In this document: piece by piece, positions 3,600 through 63,619 of the stretch
Layout: every line of letters begins with the position of its first letter
Position numbering within the stretch: position 1 is the first letter of the stretch
Origin: Amia ocellicauda
Taxonomy: Eukaryota; Chordata; Actinopteri; Amiiformes; Amiidae
Length of the DNA: 64,000 bases
Direction: 5' to 3'
Assembly: GCF_036373705.1 (NCBI RefSeq)
Contig: NC_089851.1
Span: 38,555,470-38,619,469, forward strand
The notes under the pieces: model-generated
The model's input: only the letters and a program-made list of their open reading frames with translations
Told to the model about the DNA's origin: nothing
The model's database searches: none
Position numbers and translations under genes: made by a program

Positions 3600-3682
3600 C
3601 TGTGATAGCTGAGGCTGATCATCTGCAGCACGGCATACGGTGGCTCTGATGCGGAGAGCAAGTTTTCTTAATACCTCAGGAG
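3600..3682 (-). CDS. CARNS1: CARNS copy 1, coding exon 5
   Basis: This 83-nt exon enters in phase 1 and exits in phase 0. The acceptor is TTCATATAG and the donor follows ATCACAG. It encodes PEVLRKLALRIRATVCRAAD and seven more residues, with no amino-acid difference from copy 2 (31848-31930). In this copy it lies downstream of the frameshift. Confidence 0.8.
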
Positions 3683-3808
3683 CTATATGAACAAAAACAA
3701 ATACGAAAGTTGCCATATCAGCTTTTTACTTGTATTGTATTAAACCTATATTTTACAGGGTTGTATGTATAGGAAAATATTTTAAGAACTTCAGGCAACA
3801 GTGTTCTA

Positions 3809-4575
3809 TACTGAACAAAAATAAATGCAACATGTAAAGTGTTGGTCCCATGTTTCGTGAGCTGAAATGAAATTTCCTAGAAATGTTCCATATTTACTAA
3901 AAGCTTTTGTCTGCAAATGTCTTTACATCCCTGTTAGAGCCCATTTCTCATTTGCTAAGATAACCTGACAGGTGTGGCATAACAAGAAGCTGATTAAACA
4001 GCAGGATCATTACAGGCACACCTTGTGCTGGGGACAATAAAAGGCCACTCTAAAATGGGCAGTTTTGTCACAACACGATACCACAGATGTCTTAAGTCTT
4101 GAGGGAGTGTTCAATTAGCATGCTGACTGTAGGAATGTCCACCAGAGCTGTTGCCAGAGAATTTAATGTTAATTTCTCTAACATAAGCTGCCTCTAGTGT
4201 TGTTTTAGATAATTTGTCAATGCATCCAACTGGCCTCACAACTGCATACCACATGTAACCACATGAGCCCAGGACCTCCAAACCAGCTTGTTCACCTGAG
4301 GGATTGTCTGAGACCAGCCACCAGGACAGCTGATGAAACTGGGTTGGCACAACCAAATAATTTCTGCACAAACCATCTGACACTGTCTCGGGGAAGCTCA
4401 TCTGCAGCTCATCGTCCTCATCAGGGTCTTGACCTGACTGCAGCTCTGGTGGACATTCCTGCCGTCAGCATGCTCCCTCAAAGAGACGTGAAATCCATAG
4501 ATTTGGGCCTAATTAATAAATTCAAATTGATTGATTTCCTTATATGAACTCTGTAAAATCTTTGAAATTGTGATG
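3809..4575 (+). mobile_element. Tc1/mariner relic, unit 1 copy
   Basis: The left end reads TATACTGAACAAAAATAAAT, the terminal repeat of a common fish Tc1-like family. The body carries a decayed transposase N-terminus: residues resembling a helix-turn-helix (TRAVAREFNVN, about 4142-4175) and RLRPATRTADET (about 4304-4340). It has stops, internal loss and an eroded right repeat. It lies in the CARNS intron between exons 5 and 4 and is present at the same place in unit 2 (32057-32711). Confidence 0.8.
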
Positions 4576-4868
4576 GTACCTTCAATGGCACAGTCTCCTT
4601 CGTCTGTATCCTTGGGGCATGTGACCACTACTACTGCACCAAAATCACCTGATGTTCCTTTGTCTGCCCTCAAAACACTAACATTGCCTTTGTTAGCTTG
4701 AAATATTTTTATATTGTGTTTCTCTTTACAAAACTGTATCCTTCAGTCATTTTCCTAATTCTTATTTTGAAAAGTGAATGCAAGGTGTTGTGTGCTTTTG
4801 TCTTTCTGTCAGTGCTGTACATACTGATCTGAAAGTGGAAATTAGATTTATGAAAGGCTTTGATTTAC

Positions 4869-5073
4869 CTTGATAAGTTACGCTCTGTACCAGCTTCAGT
4901 GGTTTCTGAGGCTGGACCGATTCATAAGATGCTGAGATGAGAATGGACTCTCCTTCCTGGATCCTGGGCAGGAGAGCTAGTGTGGCACTGAGGACTCCTT
5001 CCCTGTCGCTCTTCACAAGGGTCGTCTCGTTATCACAGGAATACCAGCCCCCACCAGAAGGCTGAACGATAAC
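4869..5073 (-). CDS. CARNS1: CARNS copy 1, coding exon 4
   Basis: This 205-nt exon enters in phase 0 and exits in phase 1. The acceptor is CTCTGTAG|GTTATC and the donor is TCAAG|GTAAAT. It is open in the frame matching copy 2 (33005-33209), encoding IVQPSGGGWYSCDNETTLVK and then REGVLSATLALLPRIQEGES. The differences from copy 2 are few: KSD for KRD, and LVQSVTYQ for LEQSVAFK. Confidence 0.8.
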
Positions 5074-5688: not shown

Positions 5689-6165
5689 TTCATGGCAGCT
5701 CTGTAATTCTGGATGTTGAAGAAATGTGTTGATGGCTCCAGGCATAAGCTCTTGCAGTTGTTCTTTCAACTGGACTGAAACTACTGTTATGCTGGGGTGT
5801 GGGGGCCAGCATGTTTTCAGTGATCCTGCTGAGCTGTGGAGAGCCACAGGCTGGACAGTCCAAATCTGCCTCCAGTTTGCTGTCCAGGCATGGTCCCTCT
5901 TTATCCTGGGCTTGGGTGCTGTAGCTGCCCAATGAGCTCAGGAAGTAGCTGACACGACAGGGAGGTTGGAAGGAATCAAGGTAAGTGTGGCCCCCTGCTT
6001 CAAAAGTGATCGCTTTATGGACACGGAGAGAGAAGAGCCCAGGGTGCTCAGGGGAAGGGATCTTGGAGAGCCACGTGGAGGACAAGCAAAGCAGCATGTG
6101 GCCTGTGAAGACGGTGATACAAGAGATCAGGCACCATTTTGGGGAGGGCATGAAAGGTGTGGTCT
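5689..6165 (-). pseudogene. CARNS1: CARNS copy 1, coding exon 3 with 83-bp deletion
   Basis: This exon is 477 nt against 560 nt in copy 2 (33868-34427). The sequences match on both sides of a single 83-bp gap, at about 5808-5810, where copy 2 has an extra block (about 33990-34072). As 83 is not a multiple of three, the frame shifts after ITENML and ends at TGA 5690-5692. The upstream part is nearly unchanged, including the CLISCITVFTGHMLLC segment and the CPACGSPQLSRI segment. The donor GTAAGT after the exon is intact. Confidence 0.85.
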
Positions 6166-7245: not shown

Positions 7246-7335
7246 CAGAACAGAGCCTGCCACCTTCCAAGAGAACAGGGAGGTACTTATCAGGTGAGGA
7301 CAGAACACAGATCGCCAGTTCAGATGTTGTCAGAG
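7246..7335 (-). CDS. CARNS1: CARNS copy 1, coding exon 2
   Basis: This 90-nt exon is in phase 1 at both ends. It encodes LTTSELAICVLSSPDKYLPV and then LLEGGRLCS. The donor is TTCTG|GTAGGT. One residue differs from copy 2 (TTS for TTT). The last 45 nt of this exon plus its donor recur in opposite orientation at 55420-55476. Confidence 0.8.
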
Positions 7336-8045: not shown

Positions 8046-8274
8046 CTCGTGGTGTTGTGCGGTCTCTAGTCTCTGGCAGCCCCAGCTCCAGTAGTATCTG
8101 CTGTAGAGAGTGGTACAGCTGTAGCGCTGACGTGTCGTCCTCCTGCTGAAGATGAGAGCCATCTCCCCCATCGTGGCTCAGATGCTCAGCCACATTGTAA
8201 TGAGAACCCTGAACTGTTGCTTCATGGTCTTTCTTTGTGTCTGCAGTCTGTTGCATCCTGGTATTGGAGAGAGC
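8046..8274 (-). CDS. CARNS1: CARNS copy 1, first coding exon
   Basis: This 229-nt exon has acceptor GGTTTTCAG and donor CACGAG|GTAACT. The likely start ATG is at 8254-8256 (context CCAGGATGC), giving MQQTADTKKDHEATVQGSHY and on to LGLPETRDRTTPRG. Compared with copy 2 (36938-37166), eight base substitutions cause seven residue changes and none is silent. The last third, LYHSLQQILLELGLPETRDR, is unchanged. Confidence 0.8.

Positions 8275-9661: not shown

Positions 9662-9706
<45 letters not shown>
9662..9706. repeat. (AT)n microsatellite
   Basis: About 22 AT units. Unit 2 has a longer array at the same place (39226-39284). Confidence 0.95.
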
Positions 9707-24620: not shown

Positions 24621-25829
24621 TTACATTAGGGGGTCCAGGAAATATTTGACTGGATGCTCTTTAGAATCCAATCCAAGGATTTTTGAGACAATCAGGAGTC
24701 TCTTGAAGACTTCCTCCTTGCTGGGGCTAAAGCTGGAAATGTTAAGAGCGGCAACTTCAAAGCCAGATTTGCTGGACTCATCTCTTATCATAGAACTATG
24801 GATAATTCCATTTATCTCCAAATTATTTAAATTTGCAGTGAATGAATGGTTTTCTAATGCCTGCAGATACTGAGTCATGGAGGTTGAGATCCCAGCAACG
24901 TGGCCCCTGGGCTCTGGGGTCCAAGCATGTGGTCGGATATCAAAGGCAATTAGAAAGCTAGCCAGAATAAGGTCAAACCCGTAGACAGCCTTAATCCAGG
25001 CAGGCAAGTAGTTCCCACCCATTCTTGGATTGATCTCTATGAGTTTTGGACCTGTTTCAGTCATTTTTAAGTCAACATTGAAGACACCGTTCTTCAGGCC
25101 ACAGTAGATACAGCTCTGGTAAGCTGCAGTGACCAGCTGGGTCACCTTCTCAGGACAGAGCTTAGAGGGCATGCTGTGTGATGAGTTCAGAAAGTAAGGG
25201 AGTTGAGAAGGCCCACAGTCGGAGACAAAGGCAGCCAGTAACTTCCCACTGAAGATGATCAGGTCAACATCATGCTTCATCCCCCCCACATACTCCATTA
25301 GCAATGGTTTTTGTCCAATTCCCAGAGTGAAAAGTTCTTCATGTTGTATGCTATCAAAGAATTCCTGACATTGCTGGAGATTCTCTACCATTTTGACACC
25401 CAATGCATCTGCGCTGTATTGTAGTTTCATTACCACAGGGAACTCGACTTTCTCTGTCACCTCTTGAAGCTCTGCTGGACTGTTGACTTGCAAGCAGGGC
25501 ACTGTGTAGAGTGAGACATCAGGGAAGTGCTGCAGACTGTGAGCAACTCTTCCCAAGTGCTGCTGGGTGTGACTTTTCTTTTTGGCAATGTTGATCACTT
25601 CAACACCATTACTAGGGAGACGTAGCTCTTGGCACACAAGAGATGTCAGAACAGAACAGTTACAAACAAATGTTAAGCAGCCATTGATATTCAGATTTGA
25701 CTCACATATCATTCTGGCTATATTGCAGGCATGAGCTTCATCTTGTGAGTGATCAGTAAAATTGTAATGCAGAAATTTCCACACCAGGTGGGTTGCAGGG
25801 TGATCTGATTCGGGATTTACCAAGATTAC
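24621..25829 (-). CDS. CARNS1: CARNS copy 2, coding exon 8 (ATP-grasp domain)
   Basis: This 1209-nt terminal exon starts in phase 0 (TTTTTTAG|GTAATC) and encodes 402 residues plus TAA. It begins VILVNPESDHPATHLVWKFL. Key sites are VVMKLQYSADALGVKMV (altered Gly loop), LLMEYVGGMKHDVDLIIF, FNVDLKMTETGPKLIEINPR and MGGNYLPAW. It is about 82% identical in residues to copy 3's exon. The DNA contains 141 identical bases at 25457-25597 next to strongly diverged blocks. Confidence 0.92.
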   Translation of the reverse strand, partial: VILVNPESDHPATHLVWKFLHYNFTDHSQDEAHACNIARMICESNLNINGCLTFVCNCSVLTSLVCQELRLPSNGVEVINIAKKKSHTQQHLGRVAHSLQHFPDVSLYTVPCLQVNSPAELQEVTEKVEFPVVMKLQYSADALGVKMVENLQQCQEFFDSIQHEELFTLGIGQKPLLMEYVGGMKHDVDLIIFSGKLLAAFVSDCGPSQLPYFLNSSHSMPSKLCPEKVTQLVTAAYQSCIYCGLKNGVFNVDLKMTETGPKLIEINPRMGGNYLPAWIKAVYGFDLILASFLIAFDIRPHAWTPEPRGHVAGISTSMTQYLQALENHSFTANLNNLEINGIIHSSMIRDESSKSGFEVAALNISSFSPSKEEVFKRLLIVSKILGLDSKEHPVKYFLDPLM

Positions 25830-28800
25830 CTAAAAAATAAAAAGAGAAATAAACAAATGACAATTAGGCAGTTTATATGTACTAACCAAGTGGCTCTAAC
25901 CAGAAGAACGATAGAATCAAACAATAATTTGTTAATGTTTTAGTGTGGCTGTTATTTCTTTCACACATTAAGAAAAGTATTACTAGGAAGAGTCTGAATA
26001 ATTTTAGTATACAAAAATAATGATAGGTTATTATCATAACCTTGGTTACCTGAAAAAGAAAGACAGCCATTACTGAATGGGAAGAGCCTTCTGACCTGCC
26101 AATCAGTGAAAACATGTACCAAAACTTCCCAATAGGGGCCCTGCTGGCAGGAGGAAGACCCGCCCCCAGCGTCTGTGAAAAGTCTCCTCCTGACTGCAGC
26201 TGCCTGCCATTTCTTCATCAGGAAGGTCGTCTGGCCGAGCGACCCCTGAAGGGTAATGGCTGTCTTTCTTTTTCAGGGAACTTGGGTTATGATAATAACC
26301 TATTGTTCCCTTTCAAATCGAAAGACAGCCATTACCGAATGGGAAGACTATACCAGAGCTGTCATGAGTCCTGACACCTGATTTAAGCCCCAATCCCATC
26401 ATGGCAAGCATAGGCCTCACAGGGCCAGAGGGCCAGCTGTTTGAAGTACCTGGGTTCCCAAGTTTGGGTGCAACCGGTTCACCACATTGAGGTGGTAGAA
26501 CCTTGTGACAGTTTGTTGCAGCATTACACAAGTCTTCAAGTGTGGCGCCATGAAAGTGAGCCCACGACGTGTCCTGTCCCCTTGTTGAGTGCGCTGAGAT
26601 GTGTTCAGGCATGGGAACTTTAGCAGTCTCATAGGTGTGCCGGATCGCGCCCGCCCTCCAGTGCGCTAGTCGTTGTTTTGAAACTGACCTCCTTCTGGTG
26701 GTAGAACCTTAGCAGACAAAGAGCTGGTCGGATTGTGCACTGTCCTCTGCATATAACACTTCAAAGCCAGGGCAGAGTGTGTGTAGTCTGCAATCCTCAT
26801 CCGATGTATGTGGAGGGGGATGGAAAGACTCCAGGTCAATCAGTTGATTAATGTGGAATGCCGACACGACCTTAGGTAGGAAGGCCAAGTTTGTCCTCTG
26901 AGTGACTCTGTCGTTGCTTCCTGAGAAGATCAGACAGGCTTTATCCACAGACGAGGCGTGAATTTCACTAATTCTCCTTGCATAAGGAAGGCTGCCTTGA
27001 CTGAGAGAAAGCGGAGCTCCATTGTGGAAATGGGCTCAAAGGGAGCACCGCTAAGCCCTTGCAGAACTAATTCCATGTCCCAGACTGGAATTGTGTCCTT
27101 TACTGGTGGTCTCAAACGTCTAGCACCCTTCAGAAAATGGGTTGCCAGGAAATGGGCTCCTGTGGAGACATTGTCAATCTTATCATGGCATGCTAAGATG
27201 ACAGCCAGATGTACCTTCAATGTGGATGCTGATTTCCCGTCTTCTAGCAGCTGTTGCAGGAAGCACATGACAATGACAATTAGCTGTTGTAGGTTCTTCA
27301 CTTTGCTCCAGTTTGCTCATACAAATGTAAGATAAGAGTGTCTGCTAAATGACAAATAATATATAACATTGTGCTGATCATCTGTGCCAGCATTGCAAAC
27401 CACAACTGGCAGTGGGGAGTGGGGGAAGGCATACAGCAGTTCCTCTGGCCATGGGTGAGCAAAAATGTCTGCCTCCTGTTTCCAGGGAGACAGTGGGTCA
27501 TTGCCCATCCTTTCTCATATCTGTTCCACCACCTGATATTTCAGACTCCTGTATTGGACACCTTACATAAACTGTAGAATGTACAGGCATCCAAGGGGGG
27601 AGCTGATCTCTCAACCAGTGGTGGTCTCACTGGGTTTCTCATTCCTTCTTCCTTTACTTGAAGCTGCAGCAGATTTCAATGGAGGAACCGAAGAGCGAGC
27701 GAGACTCCTGCTGTACACTTCCCCCTGAAGAGAAGCAAAGCTCCAAGAGTAGTAGACGATAAAACTCTGAAGAGTGCAAGTGGATAGCCATCCAGTTAAT
27801 CCAACTCTGAAGCACACTTCTCCAACTTTTAGTACACATGCAAGCAAAATGAAACTAAAAGCAGTATCTCAGTATGCATGTGTACATGCAAGCTGCACTC
27901 AGGACTTTTCAAAGACACTGGGGGCGAGTCTTCCTCCTGCGAGCAGAGCCATTATTGGGCAGCTTTGGTGCATGTTTTCACTGATTGGTAAGGCAGGAAT
28001 TGTAGTCTTTGTCTTCCTTAGATTTGCTCATAGGCTGTATACAATACAGTTTAATTTAGTCTCCTAAAGACAGATCTCAGGCTTCAGATGTCTATACAAT
28101 TTACCCTGATGTTTTGCTTCTTGGCTGTGTGCCACACGGACATCTTCTTGGACTCGCCTCCTCCGATTACAAGTATTGTCTTCCCGGCTATGAAGAAGGA
28201 GTGGGCTCTTTGGCACATGGTCTGTAGGAGGGGTTCCACAGTATGGGCCAGCCTTGGGAGCATCAGGAGACTGAAGGCTGTGCTGTAAACCCCTCTGTGG
28301 TGGGCAGTCAACCTCAGGAGAAGAGGGCGCAGTTTTCCATCATGCTGCATCAGTGCAAAATCCACCCCTGGAGAGCAACAGCACCAGCATAGTTATGTAT
28401 CAAAGTTGTAGCATCTAATAATGAGTGTGTGTAATTTTGTAATTGTGCTTTCTTTTTGAAAAAGTAAAACTGCTCTGTAAATGAATCAGGTTAAATTTAA
28501 GATATAATTAACTATGCTTTACATTTTTTATTGAAAACTAGATGCCATAACAGCAGTACCTATCAGATCAGTCTGAGCTCCAGCTCCACCCTTGTCCTGG
28601 TCTGAGAGCTGTGACTGATAGTCCATGACAGCCTGCATAGCTGCCTCAGCCCACTGTTTAATGATCTGCTGAATGGCAGTGAGGTCGTCTTGTGTGAAGC
28701 CCCACTCCTGCAGAGTGACCTCCAGAGTCTGCAGCACAGTGGACCTTGCACTGGCTGGAGCCTCCACCTTATCCACCCAGCACACCACCTGAACACAACA

Positions 28801-31800: not shown

Positions 31801-34800
31801 CTGTGCCTCGGCACCTCAGTGCAATATTGATCTAAATCATACTGAACCTGTGATAGCTGAGGCTGATCATCTGCAGCACGGCATACGGTGGCTCTGATGC
31901 GGAGAGCAAGTTTTCTTAATACCTCAGGAGCTATATGAACAAAAACAAATACGAAAGTTGCCATATCAGCTTTTTACTTGTATTGTATTAAACCTATATT
32001 TTACAGGGTTGTATGTATAGGAAAATATTTTAAGAACTTCAGGCAACAGTGTTCTATACTGAACAAAAATAAATGCAACATGTAAAGTGTTGGTCCCATG
32101 TTTCGTGAGCTGAAATGAAATTTCCTAGAAATGTTCCATATTTACTAAAAGCTTTTGTCTGCAAATGTCTTTACATCCCTGTTAGAGCCCATTTCTCATT
32201 TGCTAAGATAACCTGACAGGTGTGGCATAACAAGAAGCTGATTAAACAGCATGATCATTACAGGCACACCTTGTGCTGGGGACAATAAAAGGCCACTCTA
32301 AAATGGGCAGTTTTGTCACAACACGATACCACAGATGTCTTAAGTCTTGAGGGAGTGTTCAATTAGCATGCTGACTGTAGGAATGTCCACCAGAGCTGTT
32401 GCCAGAGAATTTAATGTTAATTTCTCTAACATAAGCTGCCTCCAATGTTGTTTAAGAGAATTTGGCAGTATGTCCAACCAGCCTCACAACTGCTGGCCAT
32501 GTGTAACCATGTTTCCACATCTGGCTGATGTGCTACCCGAACAGCTGATGAAACTATGGGTTGGCACAATCAAAGAATTCCAGCAATCAGCAGCCAATTG
32601 CGTGTTCTTAATCTGACACTTGAAATCCATAGATTAGGTCCTTATGAATGTATTTCAACTGACTGATTTCCTATATGAACTGTAACTCCGTAAAATCTTT
32701 GAAATTGTGATAGCACCTTCAATGGCACAGTCTCCTTTGTCTCTATCCTGGGGCATGTGCCCACTACTACTGCACCAAAACCACCTGATGTTCCTTTGTC
32801 TGCCTTCATAACACTAACATCACCTTTCTTAGCTTGAGATATTTTTATATTGTATTTCTCTTTAACTTCAATACAAGACTGTTCCCTTTCTTATTTTTTA
32901 GTTTGAAAAGTGAATGCAAGGGGTTGTGTGCTTTTGTCTTTCTGTCAGTGCTGTACATCCTGATCTGAAAGTGGCAAATGAGGTCTTAAAAGTCTTTGAT
33001 TTACCTTTAAAAGCTACGCTCTGTTCCAGCTTCAGTGGTTTCTGAGGCTGGACCGATTCATAAGATGCTGAGATGAGAATGGACTCTCCTTCCTGGATCC
33101 TGGGCAGGAGAGCTAGTGTGGCACTGAGGACTCCTTCCCTGTCCCTCTTCACAAGGGTCGTCTCGTTATCACAGGAATACCAGCCCCCACCAGAAGGCTG
33201 AACGATAACCTACAGAGTTAAAGTCAGAAGTGCTGGACAGTTAGGCCTCAGAAGGCTTGTGCACCATTTCCACATTCAAAACAACACCCCACATGTTTTG
33301 AGTTCATTGTTCAGTTCCAGACCGCTAAAGAACCTGAACATGCCTACATATAGCTACATTACTTTCTACTGTTAGAGGCAAAACATATCAATATGTTCCC
33401 ACACATAGACATTCAAAATTCCAGTGCAGGAATTGTGCAGGTCATATAACAGTCAAGTTTGTACTTTTACTGTAAAATCTGTCAGCTCTAGAAGTTAGAG
33501 AACAGCTCTGTGCCAGTGCCTTATTAACCCCTTCATTTTCAGCATTATTGATTTTGATAGTGGTTACGTATGAATTTATTTTAGAGTAGCTAATACTTTG
33601 GACATATGGATCTCATCAATTTGCCATTGATGCTTATATTGTCAATAATAAGCTGAAGATTGTAAAATATAGTGAGAGAATGTTTCATTATCATTCAACA
33701 TTTTAAAAATCTTTTACTGAAAACTATGTTTGGGACAAGATAAAACACAGCATTTCTCTTAATTATATTCTATTAGCCTATATTGATACTGTCAACTTTT
33801 TATTGATTGAAACACTTTCTGGATTAGGTTTATTCTGCATCTTGTATCACACAGGAAACACACTTACTTCATGGCAGCTCTGTAATTCTGGATGTTGAAG
33901 AAATGTGTCGATGGCTCCAGGCATAAGCTCTTGCAGTTGTTCTTTCAACTGGACTGAAACTACTGTTATGCTGGGGTGTGGGGGCCAGGATGTGGGGAGA
34001 GGGTGGAAGGAGAAGGCCAGGGTTTGGGGTATGCCCACCCCTTTCTGGGACAGCAGCTGGCGAGTCAGTAGCATGTTTTCAGTGATCCTGCTGAGCTGTG
34101 GAGAGCCACAGGCTGGACAGTCCAAATCTGCCTCCAGTTTGCTGTCCAGGCATGGTCCCTCTTTATCCTGGGCTTGGGTGCTGTAGCTGCCCAATGAGCT
34201 CAGGAAGTAGCTGACACGACAGGGAGGTTGGAAGGAATCAAGGTAAGTGTGGCCCCCTTCTTCAAAAGTGATCGCTTTATGGACACGGAGAGAGAAGAGC
34301 CCAGGGTGCTCAGGGGAAGGGATCTTGGAGAGCCACGTGGAGGACAAGCAAAGCAGCATGTGGCCTGTGAAGACGGTGATACAAGAGATCAGGCACCATT
34401 TTGGGGAGGGCATGAAAGGTGTGGTCTCTCAAATGGTACTTCATGTGCTTTTGTTCCCTTCTATCTAATCCCCCAGCCTTTGATGAAATGTTGAGATATT
34501 ATTAATTGTGTTGTTGGTTCCAGTTTTTATCTGAATCATGAACATCTTTGTTCTTCATTGTTCTCAATTAATTCTAATAAAATATACCAGTTTTCAACAC
34601 ATTGTATTTTTTTAGATTGTTCATCTCAGGGTGTTTAGGTTGAAGTATGCATTTAGAAATTAAAATTAAACTGTTCTCCTGCCCCAAATAATATATAATC
34701 TTTATTAGTGTTTCCCCACTGAATGAACATTAATATCCAAAATAATAAGTACGGGAAACAGTCGATTGAACTAATTGGGTGGTAACTTTTTCCTTCTGTA

Positions 34801-37148
34801 TTTTGTTGTGGAATCCCTGGTGCTTCTCTTTTGCCAGTTATTATAGAAGGGATAAGCACAAAGAGAAGAATTAAAGTCAGCAAAATTATTCACCCTTGCA
34901 GTCCTATGTCAGACATAGTCCAACATCTCTTTAAATGCATATTTTGCATAGAAAAAGCAGTTTCTAAGCCCCCCCCCGCGAGAGTCTTGAGTCAGGAAGT
35001 GATAGAGAGAGATGTGGCTCTCACTGCAGGCTCAACATCGCCTCATCAGCATCACAGAGTCAGAAAACAGCACGCACATCTGCACAGCTGTTCCGAATGT
35101 TAGAATATGCAGACAGTGAAGTAAATAGTTATTTAGATGGAGGCAGAAATGAGACTATATACTTATGCAAAACCTGCAGCAGAAAGCCTGTCTTACACCC
35201 AGATGAATGCTTCAAGATGTATCATACACAGCAAAAACACAGATAGACCATTGAGCATTGCAACACAATTGCACATTATATATAGTTTTTAGGTGATTGT
35301 TTGATATTGCATATTTTTGTGCATTTTACATATTTATCTTTCTTTGTTTTCAAACCTTGCCACATGTAAATATTGATGTAAAACATTTTTTTATGTTTTT
35401 TTTTTTTTTGCTGGTTACCTTTGTTAGACGTATGTGAAGTGCTATAAAAAGTTTAAAGTTCTAAAGTTAATTTATTGCAAGAAAACCTTTTTTTAAACCA
35501 TGTTGCTTTTTTTATTCATTTGCGCCTGGAATAATAATAGAAAAATGACTAATAGGCTTTTTTTTTTAAATGTTTGCACTATTTTCAAATTTGAGGGTGT
35601 CCTTTGGAATAATACTGCTTTGTGCATCGTTTTTTGCAAGAAAAGTGAGGTTATTTCAACTTGAACAACACATGGTCTGAATTGTTGTTTTCTTCACAAA
35701 ATTAAATTTGACCTGAGCAGCCTGACAGTTGCAAAATAATTGGACTGCAAAGGGTTAAAGATGCCATCGAATGCATCGCACACTATGAAGATCTGAACAA
35801 AACTGAAAGGACTGGTAGCACTAAAGGGAAGTGTGAGTTATCCAATGTTAAGCTGTGTTTCCGGCTGCTTTACAGCTGGCTGAGTCATACCATACAGTTT
35901 GGAATATCACATATTCGAAACTTCGTGACTGCACCTTAGTATAACTCTGAATAATGATAATCCTAGATGTAGTGTCACACAACAAAAAATAAAATAAAAC
36001 AAATGGAATAAGTAATGCATTAGCAGTTACCAATATTTGCAAAGTTGAAAATGTATTGTTGTTAAGGTGAATTGAAAATGCAGGAAGCTAATTATTGAAG
36101 GTTTGTGAGAAAGGCAATTATTCATAAGTTATATAATTAAACCTACCAGAACAGAGCCTGCCACCTTCCAAGAGAACAGGGAGGTATTTATCAGGTGAGG
36201 ACAGAACACAGATCGCCAGTTCAGTTGTTGTCAAAGCTGCATAAAATAATAACTTTGTTATTGATATGCCACATACAATATCATCAGCAGCACTAAACAC
36301 ACATTACAATTTTAATCACTTACTTGACTGTTCTGGGCATCTTATCTATTGTGATGCTTGCACCCCTTCATGTTTTATCAGGACTTTGGTTGGGTTTTTA
36401 CTTGTACTTTTACTGACCTGTTTTAATAAAGGCAGTTTTTAAGTTTTTCCCCTAGGATTTTAACCTTTTAGATTTTTGTCAGTGATAAGCCTCTTTAGTG
36501 CACACTTCTTGCCCTGCACTTGTATACAAACCTGTGTTGTTGGACATTGTGTTTTTCTATTTAGTGATACATTAAATATTATTGATTGCACCGGGGAGTG
36601 GGGTGCGAGAGTTCCTCTCCTCTTGTGTAATAAAAAGGAGGTGGCGCAGTCGGAGAATTAATATTGCGGTAGAGTAGCAGCTCTTGCACACAGGGGTGCT
36701 ACTGTAACATATGCAATCCTGGTTTGAAAAGGAGTATAACTCAGAAAGGCAAAATGGGAATTGAGCAGGGGCCTATCTTCAGTTTTCAAATACATTTTCA
36801 CCATGCCCATTACGTTGGAGATGAATCAACTCCCTTTGGGAGTTATTCTATTTTTCACATAATATGGGTTGCATGCACAACATATTGTTCCCCTCTATTC
36901 TGGCTCCATAGACATGACATTTCTGAGAGCCAGTTACCTCGTGGTGTTGTGCGGTCTCTAGTCTCTGGCAGCCCCAGCTCCAGTAGTATCTGCTGTAGAG
37001 AGTGGTACAGCTGTAGCACTGACTTGTCAGCCTCCTGATGAAGATGAGAGCCATCTCCCCCATCGCGGCTCAGATGCTCAGCCACATTGTAATGAGAACC
37101 GTGAACTGTTGCTTCATGGTCTTTCTTTGTGTCTACAGTCTGTTGCAT
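24621..37148 (-). CDS. CARNS1: Carnosine synthase-like copy 2, complete eight-exon coding region
   Basis: CARNS1 joins beta-alanine and L-histidine, using ATP, to make carnosine in the cytosol. Eight exons (36938-37166, 36147-36236, 33868-34427, 33005-33209, 31848-31930, 28560-28788, 28105-28367, 24621-25829) join with matching phases 1,1,0,1,0,1,0. They give 949 residues from the ATG at 37148, close to the long vertebrate CARNS1 form as I recall it (about 950). The C-terminal 400 residues form the ATP-grasp ligase domain: Lys of VVMKLQY, MEYVGGMKHDVDL, NVDLKM and IEINPRMGG with the metal-binding Glu and Asn. The glycine-rich loop that normally follows VMKLE is altered (QYSADALGV), so catalytic strength is uncertain. 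Copies 1 and 3 flank it in tandem. Family assignment rests on motif order and recalled similarity to human CARNS1. Confidence 0.88.
26026..27999 (-). mobile_element. DIRS-type element with inverted ends and recombinase remnant, in CARNS intron 7
   Basis: This roughly 2-kb insertion in the copy 2 intron between exons 7 and 8 is absent from the copy 3 intron. The ends are inverted copies: 27905-27997 reads like the reverse complement of 26096-26182 (GTCTTCCTCCTGC, CATGTTTTCACTGATTGG). A second inverted pair, 26026-26072 and 26253-26301, could fold into a long hairpin. The minus strand encodes pieces of a tyrosine recombinase in three frames (27301-26313), including LKVHLAVILACHD, FLKGARRLRPP and the HSTRG box with a catalytic-type Arg (AHSTRGQDTSWAHF, about 26600-26550). 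RT and other genes are deleted. Confidence 0.8.
26313..27301 (-). pseudogene. DIRS tyrosine recombinase remnant
   Basis: The three frame pieces together cover most of a DIRS recombinase: LLEDGKSASTLKVHLAVILA (27250-27190), VVSAFHINQLIDLESFHPPP (26870-26810) and ISAHSTRGQDTSWAHFHGAT followed by LEDLCNAATN (26600-26510). The same protein is represented, better preserved, at 55669-56513. Frame changes make this copy inactive. Confidence 0.75.
28105..28367 (-). CDS. CARNS1: CARNS copy 2, coding exon 7
   Basis: This 263-nt exon enters in phase 1 and exits in phase 0. The acceptor is CTCTCCAG|GGGTGG and the donor is ATCAGG|GTAAAT. It encodes VDFALMQHDGKLRPLLLRLT, then TILVIGGGESKKMSVWHTAK. The IGGGxS segment is the start of the Rossmann-like fold that precedes an ATP-grasp domain. 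Copy 3 reads IGAGGSLK at that place. Confidence 0.9.
28560..28788 (-). CDS. CARNS1: CARNS copy 2, coding exon 6
   Basis: This 229-nt exon enters in phase 0 and exits in phase 1. The acceptor is TTGTGTTCAG|GTGGTG and the donor is CTGATAG|GTACTG. It encodes VVCWVDKVEAPASARSTVLQ and then TLEVTLQEWGFTQDDLTAIQ. Only two of 76 residues differ from copy 3 (63391-63619), in contrast to exon 8. Confidence 0.9.
28789..29100. other. CARNS intron 5 start, triplicated noncoding DNA
   Basis: The stretch 28885-29060 (AAGTCATTGTGAGCTCATGA) matches 455-610 in unit 1 and 63740-63910 in unit 3, marking the three tandem copies. Confidence 0.7.
29101..30390 (+). mobile_element. CR1/L2-group LINE fragment, unit 2 copy
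   Basis: This is the counterpart of 655-1700. It shows the linker before RT (VKQLNDKNGSILENEQDVVN, 29115-29180), then TELKTNKSPLPDGIFPTVLK (29880-29940), DWKTANIIPNHKKGDKTEPG (30118-30178), YLDFQKAFDKAPHQ (30288-30330) and LEAAGIQGNV. A roughly 0.6-kb block (about 29290-29860) interrupts it and a SINE/L2-type tail sits at 29985-30052. It ends sooner than unit 1's copy. Stops make it inactive. Confidence 0.8.
29955..30052 (+). mobile_element. SINE/L2-type 3' tail inside the LINE
   Basis: The sequence TTGTAAGTCGCCCTGGATAA, followed by GGGCGTCTGCCAAGAA, an A run and (AAT)n, is the 3' tail shared by fish SINEs and L2 LINEs. The L2 at 45.2 kb ends in the same motif. It is a short 5'-truncated insertion. 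Confidence 0.7.
30391..31847. other. CARNS copy 2 intron 5 DNA, no gene seen
   Basis: This noncoding stretch aligns with unit 1 at about 2030-3600, without the 2190-2515 segment found there. A runs lie near 31480. Short open frames are shared with unit 1 but carry no recognisable protein. Confidence 0.55.
31848..31930 (-). CDS. CARNS1: CARNS copy 2, coding exon 5
   Basis: This 83-nt exon enters in phase 1 and exits in phase 0. It encodes PEVLRKLALRIRATVCRAAD followed by DQPQLSQ. Joining to exon 6 gives LSQVVCWVDK. The acceptor is TTCATATAG and the donor is CACAG|GTTCAG. Confidence 0.85.
32057..32711 (+). mobile_element. Tc1/mariner relic, unit 2 copy
   Basis: It has the same left end (TATACTGAACAAAAATAAAT) and the same location in intron 4 as 3809-4575, so it was present before the duplication. 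It has its own internal losses. The best stretch encodes MLTVGMSTRAVAREFNVNFS (32368-32427), part of a transposase helix-turn-helix. Confidence 0.8.
33005..33209 (-). CDS. CARNS1: CARNS copy 2, coding exon 4
   Basis: This 205-nt exon enters in phase 0 and exits in phase 1. The acceptor is CTCTGTAG|GTTATC and the donor is TTAAAG|GTAAAT. It encodes VIVQPSGGGWYSCDNETTLV, then LSATLALLPRIQEGESILIS and LKLEQSVAFK. It is open throughout and matches copy 1 closely. Confidence 0.9.
33868..34427 (-). CDS. CARNS1: CARNS copy 2, coding exon 3
   Basis: This 560-nt exon enters in phase 1 and exits in phase 0. The donor CATGAA|GTAAGT is strong. The acceptor is weaker; I chose TTTGAG|AGACCA because it is the only one I found that keeps phase with exon 2, avoids the in-frame TGA just upstream and retains CLISCITVFTGHMLLCLSST. 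Further motifs are HTYLDSFQPPCRVSYFLSSL, CPACGSPQLSRITENMLLTR and LLSQKGVGIPQTLAF, the last resembling the pre-ATP-grasp part of the N-terminal half. Confidence 0.85.
34893..35754 (+). mobile_element. piggyBac-type element remnant, in CARNS copy 2 intron
   Basis: The left end reads CCCTTGCAGTCC and the right end GGACTGCAAAGGG, inverted repeats typical of piggyBac. The right end is followed by TTAA (35755-35758), the family's target duplication; the left TTAA has mutated. The plus strand near 35160-35245 encodes LCKTCSRKPVLHPDECFKMY and HTQ, like the cysteine-rich C-terminus of piggyBac transposases. Unit 1 lacks it. About 0.86 kb remains, with most of the transposase deleted. Confidence 0.8.
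36147..36236 (-). CDS. CARNS1: CARNS copy 2, coding exon 2
   Basis: This 90-nt exon is in phase 1 at both ends. It encodes LTTTELAICVLSSPDKYLPV and LLEGGRLCS. The wording ICVLSSPxxYLPxLLEGG fits the N-terminal half of vertebrate CARNS1 as I recall it. Confidence 0.88.
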
Positions 37149-37166
37149 CCTGGTATTGGAGAGAGC
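36938..37166 (-). CDS. CARNS1: CARNS copy 2, first coding exon
   Basis: This 229-nt exon has acceptor GGTTTTCAG|GCTCTC and donor CACGAG|GTAACT (phase 1). The first ATG is at 37148-37146 in good context (CCAGGATGC), after 18 nt of leader. It encodes MQQTVDTKKDHEATVHGSHY, then LYHSLQQILLELGLPETRDR. The frame is open to the acceptor, so an upstream coding exon is possible, but the ATG here gives the expected family length. Confidence 0.85.
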
Positions 37167-48793: not shown

Positions 48794-48829
<36 letters not shown>

Positions 48830-49472: not shown

Positions 49473-51856
49473 TTACACCTCTGTCTGGAGGGGATGTATG
49501 GAGAGACGAGTGTCTGAAGGTAGCTTGGTGCAGTGTGGTCGAGACAGCGGTAGGTGAGGGTCAGTGTCAGTAGATGCAGGCAGGCCGGCCAGGAGGGAGT
49601 TGCAGTAGTCCAGGCGGGAGAGGACCAGTGACTGAACGAGCAGCTGAGTCGAGTAGTCGGTGAGGAAGGGACGGATCCCGCGTATGTTGCTCAGGAAGAA
49701 TCTACAGGTGCGTGTCAGCGTGGTGATGTGCTGGGTGTAGGAGAGCGCAGGATTGAGGGTGACTCCTAGATTTTTAGTGGAAGAAGAAGGAGAGAGTGTT
49801 GTGGATTCCAAGGGGATCGAGATGGGGAGGTCAGCAGAAGGTGAGGAAGAGTGGGGGAAAAACAGGAGATCCGATTTGGAGAGGTTGAGCTTGAGGTTGT
49901 GCAAGTGCATCCAGGCGGAAATAACTGACAAGCAGGAAGAGATGTGAGAGGGGATGAGATGGTCAGAAGAGGGAAAAGACAGGAAGATCTGGGCATCATC
50001 AGTGTAGAAGTGGTAGGAGAAACCATGGGATGCGATGAGGGGGCCCAGGGAGCGAACGTAGAGAGAGAACAGGAGGGGGCCCAGGACGGAGCCTTGGGGA
50101 ACGCCTGTGAGGAGAGGTTGAAGGGTGGATGAGGAGCCTCGCCATGTCACTTGGTAGGACCGGTCACTGACTGGCCGCCCGAGCACAGCTGAGGGAGTCA
50201 GTGACTGCCAGGAGAGCCGTCTCAGTGGAGTGAGCTGTGCGGAAGCCGGATTGAAGAGGATGAAGGAGTGAGTGTTGGGACAGAAAGTCCGAGAGCTGAC
50301 GGTGGACCGCCCGCTCGAGAGTCTTTGAGAGGAAAGGGAGTAGGGAGACAGGGCGGTAGTTCTGAGGAGAGGTGGCATCAAGGGTTGGTTTCTTGAGCAG
50401 CGGGATGACAGCAGCTTGTTTAAATGCAGAGGGGAAACAGAGAGGAGGGAGGAGATGAAGGGGAGAAGATCAGGAGCGGTTGCTTGGAAGAGACGAGAAG
50501 GGAGAGGGTCCAGGGCACACATTGTAGGTTTGTGATGTAGGAAGAGAGCAGAAACTTCAGCATCTGAGAGAGGCGAGAATGAACAAAAGGAAGCTTGATC
50601 AGTTGGAGGTTTGGGTGTGATGGGAGATGAGGGTGGAGTATTGAAGAGCCTGTGGATGTCTGCAATCTTGGTGGAGAAAAGGAGGCAAAATCATCAGCAG
50701 TGAGAGATGAGGGAGAAGGAGGGGGAGGGGGGGCAAGGAGGGAGGAGAAGGTGGAGAAGAGTTTGCGAGGGTTGTTGACAGTGGATTCGAAGAGAGATTG
50801 AAAGTAAGACTTCTTGGCTGAGGTGAGAGAGGACGAGAATGTGGACAGTAGAGAGAGGTAGACTTTGAGGGCAGCTGGGAGTTTGGTTCTTTTCCACTTC
50901 TGTTCGGTGGCACGCAGACTAGTTCGGGTTGCGCGGAGAACAGCAGAGAGCCAAGGCTGAGGAGGTAGCACAGTTGGCAGATAGATGGGAAAAACAGTCA
51001 ATGGAAGGTAAGAGGGTGAGGGCAGTGGAGGCAAGGGTGGAGGGGGAGACAGAGCGGAGATTACGGTGGAAGGTGACAGAGGGAGTGGGTGGAGAGGGGA
51101 GGGAGGGGAGGGAAAGGGAGAAGGAGATGAAGTGGTGGTCCGAGATGTCCATGGGTGTCACGGAGAGTGTTGAAGGGGAGCAGCCTCTAGAGAAGATGAG
51201 GTCTAGCTGGCAGCCTGCCCTGTGAGTGGGGGGAGACGGGGAGAGAGAGAAGTTAAAGGAGTGAAGGAGAGGAAGAAATCTGGCAGAGTGAGAAGGGTTG
51301 GAGAGGTGGATGTTGAAGTCACCCAGGAGGATGGTAGGTGAGGACAGCGAGAGGAGGGAGGAGAGAAGAAAGTCCAGGAAGGAGGTGGACCAGGTGGACG
51401 GTAGAGAACTAGAAGGAAGAGGTGAGAGAGAGAGGTGATTTCCACTGCATGGAATTCAAAGCTGTGGGTCGAGATAGAGGAGAGAGGTGGGGGACAGAGA
51501 AGAGGAGAGAAGGGGAGAGCAGGAGTCCTGTTCCTCCTCCCCGCCCGGTAAGATGAGGGGAGTGGGACAGGACGAACAAAGAGGATAATGCAGCAGGGGT
51601 GGTAGAGTTTTCTGGGGAGATCTGTCTTGGTGAGAGCGAGGAAATCCAAAGACTGGTGGGAGGCGAAGGCGGAGATGAAGTCGGCCTTGTTGGAAGCTGA
51701 GTTGCAGTTCCACAGGTCCCCATAGAGTGGAATAGAAGGGAGGGAGGAGGAGGGGAGAGGCAGAGAGATGAGGTTGGAGGGATTAGGGAAACAATGGCGC
51801 GCAGGTGCACGCCGAAAAGATGGAGAGAGCAGGACAGGAATCGGAGAGATCGTCAT
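49473..51856 (-). pseudogene. L2 LINE endonuclease and reverse transcriptase, decayed
   Basis: The endonuclease part (51856-51203) shows YGDLWNCNSASNKADFISAF, LALTKTDLP and the spacing of APE-type LINE endonucleases, with substitutions. RT is at 50522-49500: GVPQGSVLGPLLFSLYVRSL, the catalytic HFYTDDAQIF (Asp-Asp kept), ISAWMHLHNLKLNLSKSDLL, TKNLGVTLNPALSYTQHITT and LVLSRLDYCNSLLAGLP. The frames shift near 50420-50520 and 51200. The last segment is displaced beyond the hAT insertion to 45690. Confidence 0.85.
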
Positions 51857-51870
51857 GGTTGCCTGTTGTT

Positions 51871-53105
51871 GCTGTGCAGCGTCTCCTCACAGTCTTCTCC
51901 TCGCTGGAGTCCCACAGCTAGAGTCCCTGCCCTTTGTAAGTGTGGCCCTTTGGAAGGGGGGCACTAAAGGCTGCTGGCACTGACTGCTGGCACAGAGTTG
52001 TGGGGGGCGGTTAAATACGACACCTGTAACTAATTAGGACAGTGCACACCTGTGATGCGTTGAATGACACAAGGCTGGTCAGGATGGCCCTCCCTCCCAC
52101 GCAGGACTGCTAATAGCACAATTAATGGCCGCTTAATACCTGAATACAGACAAAGACAGTGCCAGACATATGCAGTTACACTGAACAATAGCTCATAGTA
52201 ATGTTAAACAAATGCTAAATAATCACAGCCTACACAGTGTAACGCTTCTGATTGCAGACAGGGCGTGTCGAGTGTGCTTAGTAACTGGTTAAATTCACTA
52301 ACAAACAGTCGCTGCTCTTACTACAAAACAGGTGCAAGATATACAATTCGTAGCTGAACAACAAACCACGTACACAAATCATTGTAACTTAACTGAACTA
52401 GGAAACGCAAGAGAAAAAGCGATACTTAGCTGCAGCGACTGGAGCGACTTCTCAGCTGGCTTGCCTGAGTGTCCAGACCAGACTTGAACTGGGCCAATGA
52501 AGTCATAGTGTTTTCCCAATTATCTCAATACAAAAATGAAATGTACCCCACTCTGGTGAGAAAGTCCTGTTTTCATCATCATATCTTCGCTCATGTTTAC
52601 ATTTTCCTTCCATCTTTAGCACTAGCCTACTTAATACAGACTGCTGGACATTACCGAGAACAGCGCAAAATGCAATTTGGTTTTTAGGCCTATTAGGGAT
52701 GTGCTACTGTTTTGCAATTGGTTGGACAAGGGACAAGTTTTCGGCAGTTAGATGTCACGACTTTTGATCCATATGTGCATGTTTACAACAACGGGGCGAC
52801 AGTTTTCAGTATTGACAAGTTTTCGGCTCAGGCACAGCACAGGAGACATTCATTATTATATGCTACTGTGATAAGGGCGACGTTCTTGTACACAGATTTG
52901 CGTCATTCTGTATAGAATATGAACAAATACTGTAAATGAATTGGCTAAATGACCAAATTCTGCATAGACGTGTATCTACAGTACCAGAACATGACCCAGT
53001 ATGTTCTGTTTTGCCTCTTTGAGAGAGCCACTTGCGGTGGATTAAAGAGCCGAGCAAAATTAGGTGCAGTTATTTATACTGTAGCTTGAGACCTCTAAAG
53101 TGAAC
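51871..53105. other. 5' side of L2 insertion and resumed unit 2 homology
   Basis: The part 51871-52525 is specific to unit 2 and probably L2 leader or an adjoining insertion; no gene is seen. From about 52530 the sequence again matches unit 1 (12095-12690), ending near 53105, where unit homology stops. Confidence 0.5.
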
Positions 53106-60871: not shown

Positions 60872-60877
60872 TTTATT
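60872..60877 (-). promoter_or_regulatory. Polyadenylation signal of CARNS copy 3
   Basis: AATAAA on the minus strand, about 32-37 bp after the stop at 60909-60911. Confidence 0.65.
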
Positions 60878-60908
60878 TTAACATCAAGTTGAAAAGACTT
60901 CTATGTTT

Positions 60909-62120
60909 TTACATTAGGGGGTCTAGGAAATATTTGAATGGATACTCTTTAGAATCCAGTCCAAGGATTTCGGAGACAATAAGGAGTCTCTTGAAGACTT
61001 CCTCCTTGCTGTGGCTAAAGCTGGAAAGGTTAAGGGAGACAACTTCAAAGCCAAATTTGCTGGACCCATCTCTTAATATAATACTATGGATGATTCGGTT
61101 TGCCTCCAAGTGTTTTAAAGTTGCAGTGAATGAAGGGTTTTCTAAAGCCTGCAGATACTGAGTCATGGGGGTTGATAGCCCAGCAATATGGCCCCTGGGC
61201 TCTGGGGTCCAAGCATGTGGTCGGATATCACAGGCAATTAGAAAGCTAACCAGAATTAGGTCAAACCCATAGACAGCCTTAACCCAGGCAGGCATGTAGA
61301 TCCCACCTGTTCTTGGGTTGATCTCTAAGAGTTTTGGGCCTGTTTCAGTCATTTTTAAGTCAACATTGAAGACACCGTTCTTCAGGCCACAGTAGATACA
61401 GCTCTGGTAAGCTGCAGTGACTAGCTGGTTCACCTTCTCAGGACAGAGCTTAGAGGGCATTATGTGTGATAAGTTCAGAAAATATTGGGATCCAGAGGGC
61501 CCATAGTCAGAGACAAATGCAGCCAGTAACTTTCCACAGAAGATGATCAGATCAACAACATGCTTCTCCCCACCCACATACTCCATTAGCATTACTTCTG
61601 GTGTTATTCCCAGACTGAAAAGATCTTTCTGCTGTTTTATGCTGTCATAGAATTCCTCACATTGCTGGGGATTCTCTACCATTTTGACACCCAATCCGCC
61701 TTCACCATATTCAAGTTTCATCACTGCTGGAAAATCCACTTTCTCTATCACCTCTTGAAGCTCTGCTGGACTGTTGACTTGCAAGCAGGGCACTGTGTAG
61801 AGTGAGACATCAGGGAAGTGCTGCAGACTGTGAGCAACTCTTCCCAAGTGCTGCTGGGTGTGACTTTTCTTTTTGGCAATGTTGATCATTTCAACACCAT
61901 TACTAGGGAGACCTAGCTCTTTGCACAGAATAGATGTCAGAACAGAACAGTTACAAACAAATGTTAAGCAGCCGTTGATATTCAGGTTTGACTCACGTAT
62001 CATACTGGCTATATTTCGGGAATGAGCTTCATCTTCTGAGTGATCAGTAAAATTGTAATGCAGAAATTTCCACACCAGGTGGATTGCAGGGTGATCTGAT
62101 TCGGGATTTACCAAGATTAT
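60909..62120 (-). CDS. CARNS1: CARNS copy 3, coding exon 8 (ATP-grasp domain)
   Basis: This 1212-nt terminal exon encodes 403 residues plus TAA, one residue longer than copy 2 through an insertion in KQQKDLFSLGI. It begins IILVNPESDHPAIHLVWKFL. About 70 of 400 residues differ from copy 2, clustered around the glycine loop, the MEYV segment and the C-terminal 70 residues. Confidence 0.92.
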   Translation of the reverse strand: MILVNPESDHPAIHLVWKFLHYNFTDHSEDEAHSRNIASMIRESNLNINGCLTFVCNCSVLTSILCKELGLPSNGVEMINIAKKKSHTQQHLGRVAHSLQHFPDVSLYTVPCLQVNSPAELQEVIEKVDFPAVMKLEYGEGGLGVKMVENPQQCEEFYDSIKQQKDLFSLGITPEVMLMEYVGGEKHVVDLIIFCGKLLAAFVSDYGPSGSQYFLNLSHIMPSKLCPEKVNQLVTAAYQSCIYCGLKNGVFNVDLKMTETGPKLLEINPRTGGIYMPAWVKAVYGFDLILVSFLIACDIRPHAWTPEPRGHIAGLSTPMTQYLQALENPSFTATLKHLEANRIIHSIILRDGSSKFGFEVVSLNLSSFSHSKEEVFKRLLIVSEILGLDSKEYPFKYFLDPLM

Positions 62121-63619
62121 CTAAAAAGGAAAATAAACAAAACACAATTAGGCAGTTTATATGTGGCTCTAACCAGAAGAATGATAATGATAAACAATGT
62201 TTTCTTCTTTTGAAGTAGTTGTAATTGATCTCATATTTCCAGAAAGATTAATTTGCGTAAACAAAAAATATCCCATTTTACTACATGGCCTACTAATATT
62301 ATTTCTATTATATACAGCTCTGGAAAAAATAAGAGACCACTTAACATTGATTTCTGAACTTGGAGTGGTCTCTTAAATTTGTTCCAGAGCTGTAATTGTT
62401 ATGCTTCATTTACAAATGCTATAGTCATGGGGGCTAGCAGTCAACCCTGATATCTCACATCCCAGCCATGCACACTACCTCTCTCCAAAAAAGGTTGCTT
62501 CCTTATATTTGCTCCAAGGCTGTATGCATTACAATTTAATTTAGTCTTCTAAAGACAGATATCAGGCTTCAGATGTCTATACAATTTACCCTGATGTTTT
62601 GCTTCTTGGCAGTGTGCCACACGGACATCTTCAGGGACCCTCCTGCTCCGATTACGAGTATTGTCTTCCCGGCTATGAAGAAGGAGTGGGCTCTTTGGCA
62701 CATGGTCTGTAGGAGGGGTTCCACAGTATGGGCCAACCTTGGGAGCATCAGGAGACTGAAGGCTGTGCTGTAAACCCCTCTGTGGTGGGCAGTCAACCTC
62801 AGGAGAAGAGGGCGCAGTTTTCCATCCTGCTGAATCAGTGCAAACTCCACCCCTGGAGAGCAACAGCACCAACAAGCATGACAGTATTGCATCATACAAT
62901 GCATGCAACTTTAAAGAACCAGAATCTGAACTTAAAATCTAACTCTTCACATACGATACTATAATTACAGATGGATGAACAATAAATTAGCAAACTGAAC
63001 TTTCATCAGCAGTTTGTACCCGTTTCATGTATAAACTGTAAAAACAACTCTAAGATCTAATTGACTACCCTTAAAAAAAAAAAAAACAGTTTGGGAACCT
63101 CCGAGTTAGCTGAAACACTGCGTCAACAACACAAGGATGTGACGCGTCATATGCCGGAATTTGTTTTCCTGCTCCATTCACACAGACCCGTTCCCAGAAT
63201 TTAGCTGGCATTTAGACTAGGTCCCAAGGTGGAAAACTGCTGGTGTCGAAATGCTGGCATAAACACATTCACACAGACCTTGCCGGCAACAAAATACCAC
63301 CAAAAACCCAGCATTTGTTTCAGTGTGAATGGGGCTTAATTAACTACCCTTTAAAAAAAGATTGAAGACTAGATGCCATAACAGCAGTACCTATCAGATC
63401 AGTCTGAGCTCCAGCTCCACCCTTGTCCTGGTCTGAGAGCTGTGACTGGTAGTCCATGACAGCCTGCATAGCTGCCTCAGCCCACTGTTTAATGATCTGC
63501 TGAATGGCAGTGAGGTCGTCTTGTGTGAAGCCCCACTCCTGCAGAGTGACCTCCAGAGTCTGCAGCACAGTGGGCCTTGCACTGGCTGGAGCCTCCGCCT
63601 TATCCACCCAGCACACCAC
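60909..63619 (-). CDS. CARNS1: Carnosine synthase-like copy 3, 3' half
   Basis: The last three coding exons (63391-63619, 62590-62852, 60909-62120) are intact with the same phases as copy 2; the upstream exons lie beyond the right edge. The ATP-grasp domain has a normal glycine-rich loop (VMKLEYGEGGLGVKMV). However, MEYVGGEKHVVDL has Val where copy 2 and, as I recall it, human CARNS1 have Asp, and the metal-binding motif reads LEINPRTGGIYMP, with Thr and Ile in place of Met and Asn. The metal-binding Glu and Asn of EINPR are kept. No stop or frameshift is visible, so this is a potentially active but altered ligase. Whether the rest of the gene is intact cannot be seen. Confidence 0.88.
62313..62394. 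mobile_element. Small palindromic MITE in CARNS copy 3 intron 7
   Basis: About 82 bp with inverted ends CAGCTCTGGAAAAAAT and its complement CCAGAGCTG, flanked by TA on each side. The inner arms AGAGACCACT / AGTGGTCTCT also pair. It is a Tc1/mariner-type miniature element and is absent from copy 2. Confidence 0.85.
62590..62852 (-). CDS. CARNS1: CARNS copy 3, coding exon 7
   Basis: This 263-nt exon enters in phase 1 and exits in phase 0 at ATCAGG|GTAAAT. It encodes VEFALIQQDGKLRPLLLRLT and TILVIGAGGSLKMSVWHTAK. The glycine pattern IGAGG is closer to a standard nucleotide-fold loop than copy 2's IGGGES. Confidence 0.9.
62853..63390. other. CARNS copy 3 intron 6
   Basis: At 538 bp it is longer than in copy 2 (192 bp). 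The middle part (63080-63335) contains the near-palindromic pair CATTCACACAGAC at 63176 and 63266 and looks like an old small insertion. No gene. Confidence 0.5.
63391..63619 (-). CDS. CARNS1: CARNS copy 3, coding exon 6
   Basis: This 229-nt exon enters in phase 0 and exits in phase 1. It encodes VVCWVDKAEAPASARPTVLQ and then TLEVTLQEWGFTQDDLTAIQ. Two residues differ from copy 2. Confidence 0.9.

Follow-up and report, generated by a model that had tools for sequence, protein, structure and literature searches.

Does the carnosine synthase gene CARNS1 form a tandem array in a ray-finned fish, or do the repeated copies belong to a separate relative of this gene? The question is raised by a stretch of 64,000 nucleotides (nt) of contig NC_089851.1 of Amia ocellicauda (C2:38,555,470-38,619,469), here called the window, for which a preliminary description had proposed a minus-strand array of at least three carnosine synthase genes. 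Positions are given on the scale of the window, with negative values and values above 64000 lying in its flanks; C2, C18, C22 etc. are contigs of the genome, which was searched over 988,188,214 bases in 385 contigs. We consider it likely that the array consists of a tandemly duplicated, anciently diverged paralogue of CARNS1, present as three intact genes and a fragment. To our knowledge, vertebrates are generally credited with a single carnosine synthase. In a literature search on this enzyme, none of the open-access titles and abstract openings listed reported duplicated or tandem carnosine synthase genes.

Gene models were built from AG/GT splice sites and from intron phases conserved between the copies; all exons are thus predictions. 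The predicted intact gene has eight coding exons of 229, 90, 497, 205, 83, 229, 263 and 1209 nt on the minus strand. Over about 107 kb, the array contains three intact CARNS1-like genes (A, C and D) and a fragment, B. Copy A (-15020 to -32307; C2:38,523,163-38,540,450) is located left of the window and encodes 928 amino acids (aa), copy C (37166-24621; 928 aa) is located wholly inside and copy D (74212-60909; 930 aa) is half inside. Each of the three models has one stop, the terminal one, and their coding lengths differ by two single codons, both in D, whose exon 8 has 1212 nt vs 1209 nt in C. Since the first ATG of exon 1 of copy C stands 18 nt past the acceptor site, a further exon probably exists upstream of it. 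When the genome was searched with the last exon, the three array copies were recovered with 82-100% identity and expectation values (E) from 1.7e-223 to 2.0e-277 (the best being the query itself), and because of these values a chance match is excluded. Exon 3 was found at four array places (B as two pieces) and, in addition, at one C18 and two C22 loci. All genome-wide copy counts are lower bounds because only the best candidates were scored.

The layout proposed earlier agrees in part with these models. The exon sizes of 83, 205, 90 and 229 nt for the first and second copies and of 229 and 263 nt for the second and third are exact, with matching AG/GT sites and phases, and the limits 3600 and 63619 are exact exon ends; the two 229-nt exons were correctly sized, but they are different exons (1 and 6). 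The second copy (C) is indeed complete, and the third (D) has its 3′ half in the window and the rest in the right flank. Extension of the flanks, as had been proposed, gave the intact copy A on the left and the remainder of D on the right. The count of at least three copies still holds because the intact gene A lies left of the window. The first copy, in contrast, is not the 5′ half of a complete gene: it is B, which keeps only exons 1-5, has a frame-shifted exon 3 and loses homology at position 428.

Outside the array, the last exon matched three loci in the genome, at C18:18.93 Mb and at C22:26.15 and 26.30 Mb, with 32-45% identity per segment; two more matches, at E 5.7 and 8.9, were taken as chance. 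The predicted products have 1292 aa (C18) and 1099 aa each (C22 and C22b) and are encoded by nine coding exons. The seven intron positions of the array are kept with their phases, plus one intron within the array's exon 8. C18 and C22 are 82% identical on the protein level and either is 34-36% identical to the array, whose copies are mutually 90-93% identical. In the genome-wide search with PF18130, a family that we take to be tied to CARNS1 and to BL00235, the cut-off was passed at C18 and both C22 loci and nowhere else found. Six primers for quantitative PCR of mouse and chicken CARNS1 were translated and compared with the array and with C18/C22; the reading frames of five of them are uncertain. 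The mouse Carns1 reverse primer (NM_134148), as given in an excerpt of PMC6032234, encodes FWDDCLV. The corresponding segment is FWDDCIV in C18, FWDSCTV in C22 and FVCNCSV in the array, and the BLOSUM score reaches 44 of 46 points with C18 and 35 with C22. The other five primers favour neither side: their best matches are mostly at unrelated places, and the single frames AASARS, GVSKK and LAFDLSP score higher with the array. Judged from one primer of six and one Pfam model, a slender link, C18/C22 are probably the CARNS1 side, and because PF18130 and the one informative primer point to them, the array is likely a paralogue and not CARNS1 proper. Coronin, which we assume to be the neighbour of human CARNS1, had six matches, on C4, C19, C20, C23 (two) and C28, and none on C18/C22, which is a small point against C18/C22 being CARNS1 in its old place. 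Matches to the carnosine N-methyltransferase family (PF07942) were found only on C8, not in the array.

Two peculiarities of these genes should be mentioned. The C18 gene (C18:18,922,205-18,937,968) has a long insert rich in Ser, Pro, Asn and Thr in the ATP-grasp region and Gln/Glu-rich repeats near its end; both are also present in C22, but shorter there. The two C22 loci (C22:26,144,957-26,155,762 and C22:26,294,268-26,305,073) are 149 kb apart and 99.9% identical on the DNA level over about 10.8 kb; this pair could be a very young duplication or a false one produced by the assembly.

What kind of enzyme would the array encode? Exon 8 alone matches ATP-grasp families in Pfam, with 36-39 bits for PF13535 in A, C and D (cut-off 27); the array passes the cut-offs of both PF13535 and PF15632, whereas C22 stays below them. 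When the PDB was searched with a profile built from D, C, A and C22, BacD came first (1.1e-12), followed by BL00235 (1.2e-7). An AlphaFold model of exon 8 of D had a predicted local distance difference test score of 72 and a predicted template modelling score of 0.75, with residues 317-403 being poor; in a Foldseek search with it, six of the first seven rows were L-amino-acid ligases (YwfE/BacD, BL00235, RizA) and the seventh was 4dim. Of 42 prokaryotic relatives found, 33 were used for alignment and tree (L066, L074-L080 and L082 were left out). In the numbering of D's exon 8, K135, G184, G261, P262 and E266 are among six columns invariant in D, C and the 33 prokaryotic relatives, and E180, N268 and R270 are nearly invariant; K135, G184, E266, N268 and R270 are all invariant among D, C, A and C22. 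We take these conserved positions to be the nucleotide-site lysine, acidic metal ligands, an asparagine and an arginine. The acid before the second glutamate, presumably with a role in metal binding, is Asp in the array and Glu in BacD and C18/C22. By alignment and structural model, the predicted array proteins carry an ATP-grasp domain of the dipeptide-ligase type with its key residues. A tree of the ATP-grasp part with 38 rows (the 33 prokaryotic sequences, A, C, D, C18 and C22; C22b was left out as a near copy) supported the array with 100/100, C18+C22 with 100/99, both together with 100/100 and A+D with 100/98. The array and C18/C22 share their exon-intron structure and form one branch apart from the prokaryotic ligases.

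The ratio of nonsynonymous to synonymous divergence (dN/dS) over the whole coding sequence, with bootstrap ranges, is 0.53 (0.38-0.77) for A-C, 0.64 (0.43-1.03) for A-D and 0.55 (0.39-0.80) for C-D, the range being below 1 in two of the three pairs. In a simple neutral simulation that used as many substitutions as were observed, 4.0-5.8 stops were expected and the probability of none was 0.0025-0.021; none was observed. The pattern in the predicted genes A, C and D is that of weak purifying selection, or of selection that ended recently. Divergence is unevenly distributed along the gene. On the DNA level, the intact copies differ by 0-4.2% in each of exons 1-7, apart from exon 1 vs D (7-8%) and exon 5 vs A (6%), and by 5.1-9.8% in exon 8. 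Summed over exons 1-7 (1596 nt), divergence is 2.2% for A-C, 3.1% for A-D and 2.8% for C-D, compared to 8.0, 5.1 and 9.8% in exon 8, that is, 1.7 to 3.6 times as much. Residues that vary among the copies number 38 of 527 in exons 1-7 and 81 of 403 in exon 8 (Fisher 9e-9). At silent sites, exon 8 of C is the outlier (dS 0.15-0.17 vs 0.03-0.05 in C exons 1-7), as would be expected if the 5′ part had undergone conversion or crossing-over. Between A and D, dN/dS is 0.41 in exons 1-7 vs 0.97 in exon 8 and nonsynonymous/synonymous changes are 28/21 vs 48/14 (Fisher 0.026, uncorrected for several pairs); relaxed constraint and diversification are both compatible with this pattern and cannot be told apart.

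Could the array be an artefact, with haplotypes or repeats falsely placed in tandem? A collapsed or false duplication had been raised in the preliminary description, and the C22 pair, with 99.9% identity at a distance of 149 kb, suggests that the assembly may hold such cases. The array, however, is located on a single 63.6-Mb contig, and no N occurs in the 264 kb read across it. Over the whole coding sequence, dS is 0.077 for A-C, 0.056 for A-D and 0.094 for C-D, which exceeds ordinary heterozygosity, and exon 8 diverges by 5-10% on the DNA level. Introns and flanks align between the copies only in pieces, with about 73-97% identity and changing spacing (self-comparison matches were reported above 500 nt at 75% identity and, in a second comparison, above 60 nt). 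Because of the gap-free 264 kb and a dS of 0.056-0.094, collapse or false duplication of the array is unlikely, and we attach next to no weight to an assembly artefact. Haplotype duplication of the array was considered separately; it is very unlikely in view of the divergence and the uneven spacing. Decay is another matter: the array copies may be duplicates without function, with only C18/C22 at work. B is broken, and a dN/dS of 0.53-0.64 overall and 0.97 for exon 8 of A-D would be in line with this. Yet all three complete copies keep 928-930 codons with no stop where 4.0-5.8 are expected, the only length differences are the two single codons in D, and the key residues are kept; we regard this explanation as improbable.

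That the array represents extra copies of canonical CARNS1, each making carnosine, seems quite doubtful to us. Its intron positions and kind of domain are the same and the CARNS1-side genes are the closest homology found; moreover, C18/C22 are tied to the vertebrate enzyme by one mouse peptide and one Pfam model, the frames AASARS, GVSKK and LAFDLSP of three primers favour the array, and C22, unlike the array, is below the cut-offs of PF13535 and PF15632. Against it stand the identity of only 34-36% to C18/C22, the mouse peptide FWDDCLV, which resembles C18 and C22 and not FVCNCSV of the array, and the PF18130 cut-off, passed only at C18 and both C22 loci. The local expansion claimed earlier is borne out for CARNS1-like genes, but probably not as additional copies of canonical CARNS1; and for the exons, for which a closer affinity to another ATP-grasp family had been allowed, the CARNS1-side genes are the nearest relatives found, if only as distant paralogues. 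A new activity within the family, with the array making dipeptides other than carnosine, is a possibility to be taken seriously, albeit short of being probable. In its favour, roughly two residues in three are not those of the CARNS1-side genes, and 81 of 403 residues vary in the ATP-grasp exon vs 38 of 527 in exons 1-7. Against it, relaxed constraint accounts equally well for the excess in exon 8, and mammalian ATPGD1 itself already accepts gamma-aminobutyric acid besides beta-alanine, 15- to 25-fold less well, according to an excerpt of PMC6271292.

Several observations weigh against an intact, working paralogue array, which we still prefer. The exon models of the array are predictions. PF18130, labelled ATPgrasp_N by the tool, has no match at E <= 1 in exon 8 of A, C and D, and none at E <= 1 in a 444-residue stretch of C that includes the end of exon 7. 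A dN/dS of 0.53-0.64 is high for an enzyme, and the A-D values, 0.64 (0.43-1.03) overall and 0.97 (0.55-2.03) in exon 8, are compatible with relaxed constraint. E180, nearly invariant elsewhere, is Asp in C22 and Gly in C18, and the presumed nucleotide loop reads SADA in C vs GEGG in A and D. Finally, the rows of the array, C18 and C22 were flagged by the tree program for their long branches and atypical composition.

The truncated edge of B deserves a closer look. Copy B (8274-3600) has lost exons 6-8, and 83 nt missing from its exon 3 shift the frame and give stops downstream. Its homology to C stops at position 428, directly before exon 6. Between the start of A and position 428, no match was obtained on the protein level (E up to 1), and on the DNA level only a 159-nt non-coding match (intron 7, 76%) and short hits. 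The piece of a Tc1-type repeat at the truncated edge has four further copies within the 264 kb read; its counterpart at 16649-16902 overlaps the start of a Tc1-type transposase open reading frame (ORF) at 16804. We infer that a transposon marks the breakpoint of copy B. Uninterrupted Tc1-type transposase ORFs of 346 aa are present in the window (16804-17844) and in the flanks (-39244 to -38207 and 85827-86864), and shorter close relatives are found elsewhere in the region. Because of the three uninterrupted ORFs and these relatives, the data suggest that Tc1-type elements were recently active.

The history of the array would then be as follows. The process, tandem gene duplication, is ordinary, but the gene on which it acted is unusual: it is probably a CARNS1 paralogue of ancient origin. 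B may have lost its 3′ half by an event near the Tc1-type repeat, and conversion or unequal crossing-over may have homogenised exons 1-7 of the intact copies, with exon 8 left to diverge. Each array protein would activate a small carboxylic substrate, beta-alanine or similar, with ATP to give an acyl phosphate, which would be attacked by the amine of histidine or a similar compound; a dipeptide would be formed and ADP and phosphate released. This scheme is modelled on CARNS1 and bacterial L-amino-acid ligases, and the array proteins may use another substrate pair than CARNS1. It is tempting to go further and, tentatively and with considerable reserve, to speculate that vertebrates have a second family of dipeptide ligases of the histidine type, which split from CARNS1 long ago, was retained in this fish lineage and became amplified in tandem. 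Its three working copies would diverge in the ATP-grasp exon, with the N-terminal exons kept alike by conversion, and a single fish would thus produce a variety of small dipeptides, compared to mainly carnosine in other vertebrates. If the array is a separate, intact and amplified paralogue, early ray-finned fishes would have had at least two ligases of this kind, and the array would offer a direct route to new dipeptides in muscle or brain. The genome has four Hox9 loci (a lower bound); with the Hox9 numbers of teleosts as comparison for the teleost genome duplication, the host probably lacks this duplication because of the four loci. The fish is a useful outgroup to teleosts for finding out when a second family was kept, lost or renamed.

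Features of the CARNS1-like array in the window and its right flank, listed by position
Feature	Position	Strand	Basis or remark
Tc1-type repeat piece at truncated edge of B	127..380	.	99.6% identical to 16649-16902
Copy B (broken), exon 5, 83 nt	3600..3682	-	flanked by AG/GT; same sequence as exon 5 in C and D
Copy B, exon 4, 205 nt	4869..5073	-	AG/GT sites and phases
Copy B, exon 3, 414 vs 497 nt, 83-nt deletion shifts frame	5689..6102	-	break near 5808-5814; two hits in protein search
Copy B, exon 2, 90 nt	7246..7335	-	AG/GT sites and phases
Copy B, exon 1 (first coding), 229 nt	8046..8274	-	AG/GT sites and phases
Copy C, exon 8, 1209 nt, ATP-grasp domain and stop	24621..25829	-	AG/GT sites, phases, domain match
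Copy C, exon 7, 263 nt	28105..28367	-	AG/GT sites and phases
Copy C, exon 6, 229 nt	28560..28788	-	AG/GT sites and phases
Copy C, exon 5, 83 nt	31848..31930	-	AG/GT sites and phases
Copy C, exon 4, 205 nt	33005..33209	-	AG/GT sites and phases
Copy C, exon 3, 497 nt	33868..34364	-	AG/GT sites and phases
Copy C, exon 2, 90 nt	36147..36236	-	AG/GT sites and phases
Copy C, exon 1, 229 nt	36938..37166	-	first ATG 18 nt past acceptor site
Copy D, exon 8, 1212 nt, ATP-grasp domain and stop	60909..62120	-	AG/GT sites, phases, domain match
Copy D, exon 7, 263 nt	62590..62852	-	AG/GT sites and phases
Copy D, exon 6, 229 nt	63391..63619	-	AG/GT sites and phases
Copy D, exons 5 to 1	65278 to 74212, right flank	-	AG/GT sites and phases

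Among the neighbours of the array are an NFX1-type gene on the right, where one ORF of the two scanned exceeded the PF01422 cut-off, and, to the left, a Link-domain ORF and an EF-hand, myosin-light-chain-like ORF. Further to the right, at C2:38,705,363-38,709,721, long plus-strand ORFs stand close together; by eye we take them to resemble SAMD9-type genes, and the one ORF scanned had no Pfam match. Within the window, positions 48001-52000 have a strong GC skew of 0.375 over a stretch with a minus-strand reverse-transcriptase ORF.

How does the array compare with known systems? Like CARNS1/ATPGD1 (EC 6.3.2.11), for which C18 and C22 serve as proxies, it has a C-terminal ATP-grasp ligase part, and seven intron positions and phases are common to both. 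It differs from these proxies in being only 34-36% identical, in its location on another contig and in having neither PF18130 nor an intron in the last exon. Genes annotated as 'carnosine synthase 1-like' are also known from other animals; in ayu, for example, LOC136954605 bears this name and is listed with a value of -12.8 in a muscle transcriptome table, according to an excerpt of PMC11764881; it belongs to the same name class as the array, the comparison being by name only. The bacterial L-amino-acid ligases BacD/YwfE, BL00235 and RizA are at the top by fold, and BacD and BL00235 also by profile. The Lys, Glu, Asn and Arg positions of the array are kept among the 33 prokaryotic relatives, whereas identity in the fold alignment is 14-17% and the bacterial enzymes lack the N-terminal half that exons 1-7 encode in the animal proteins.

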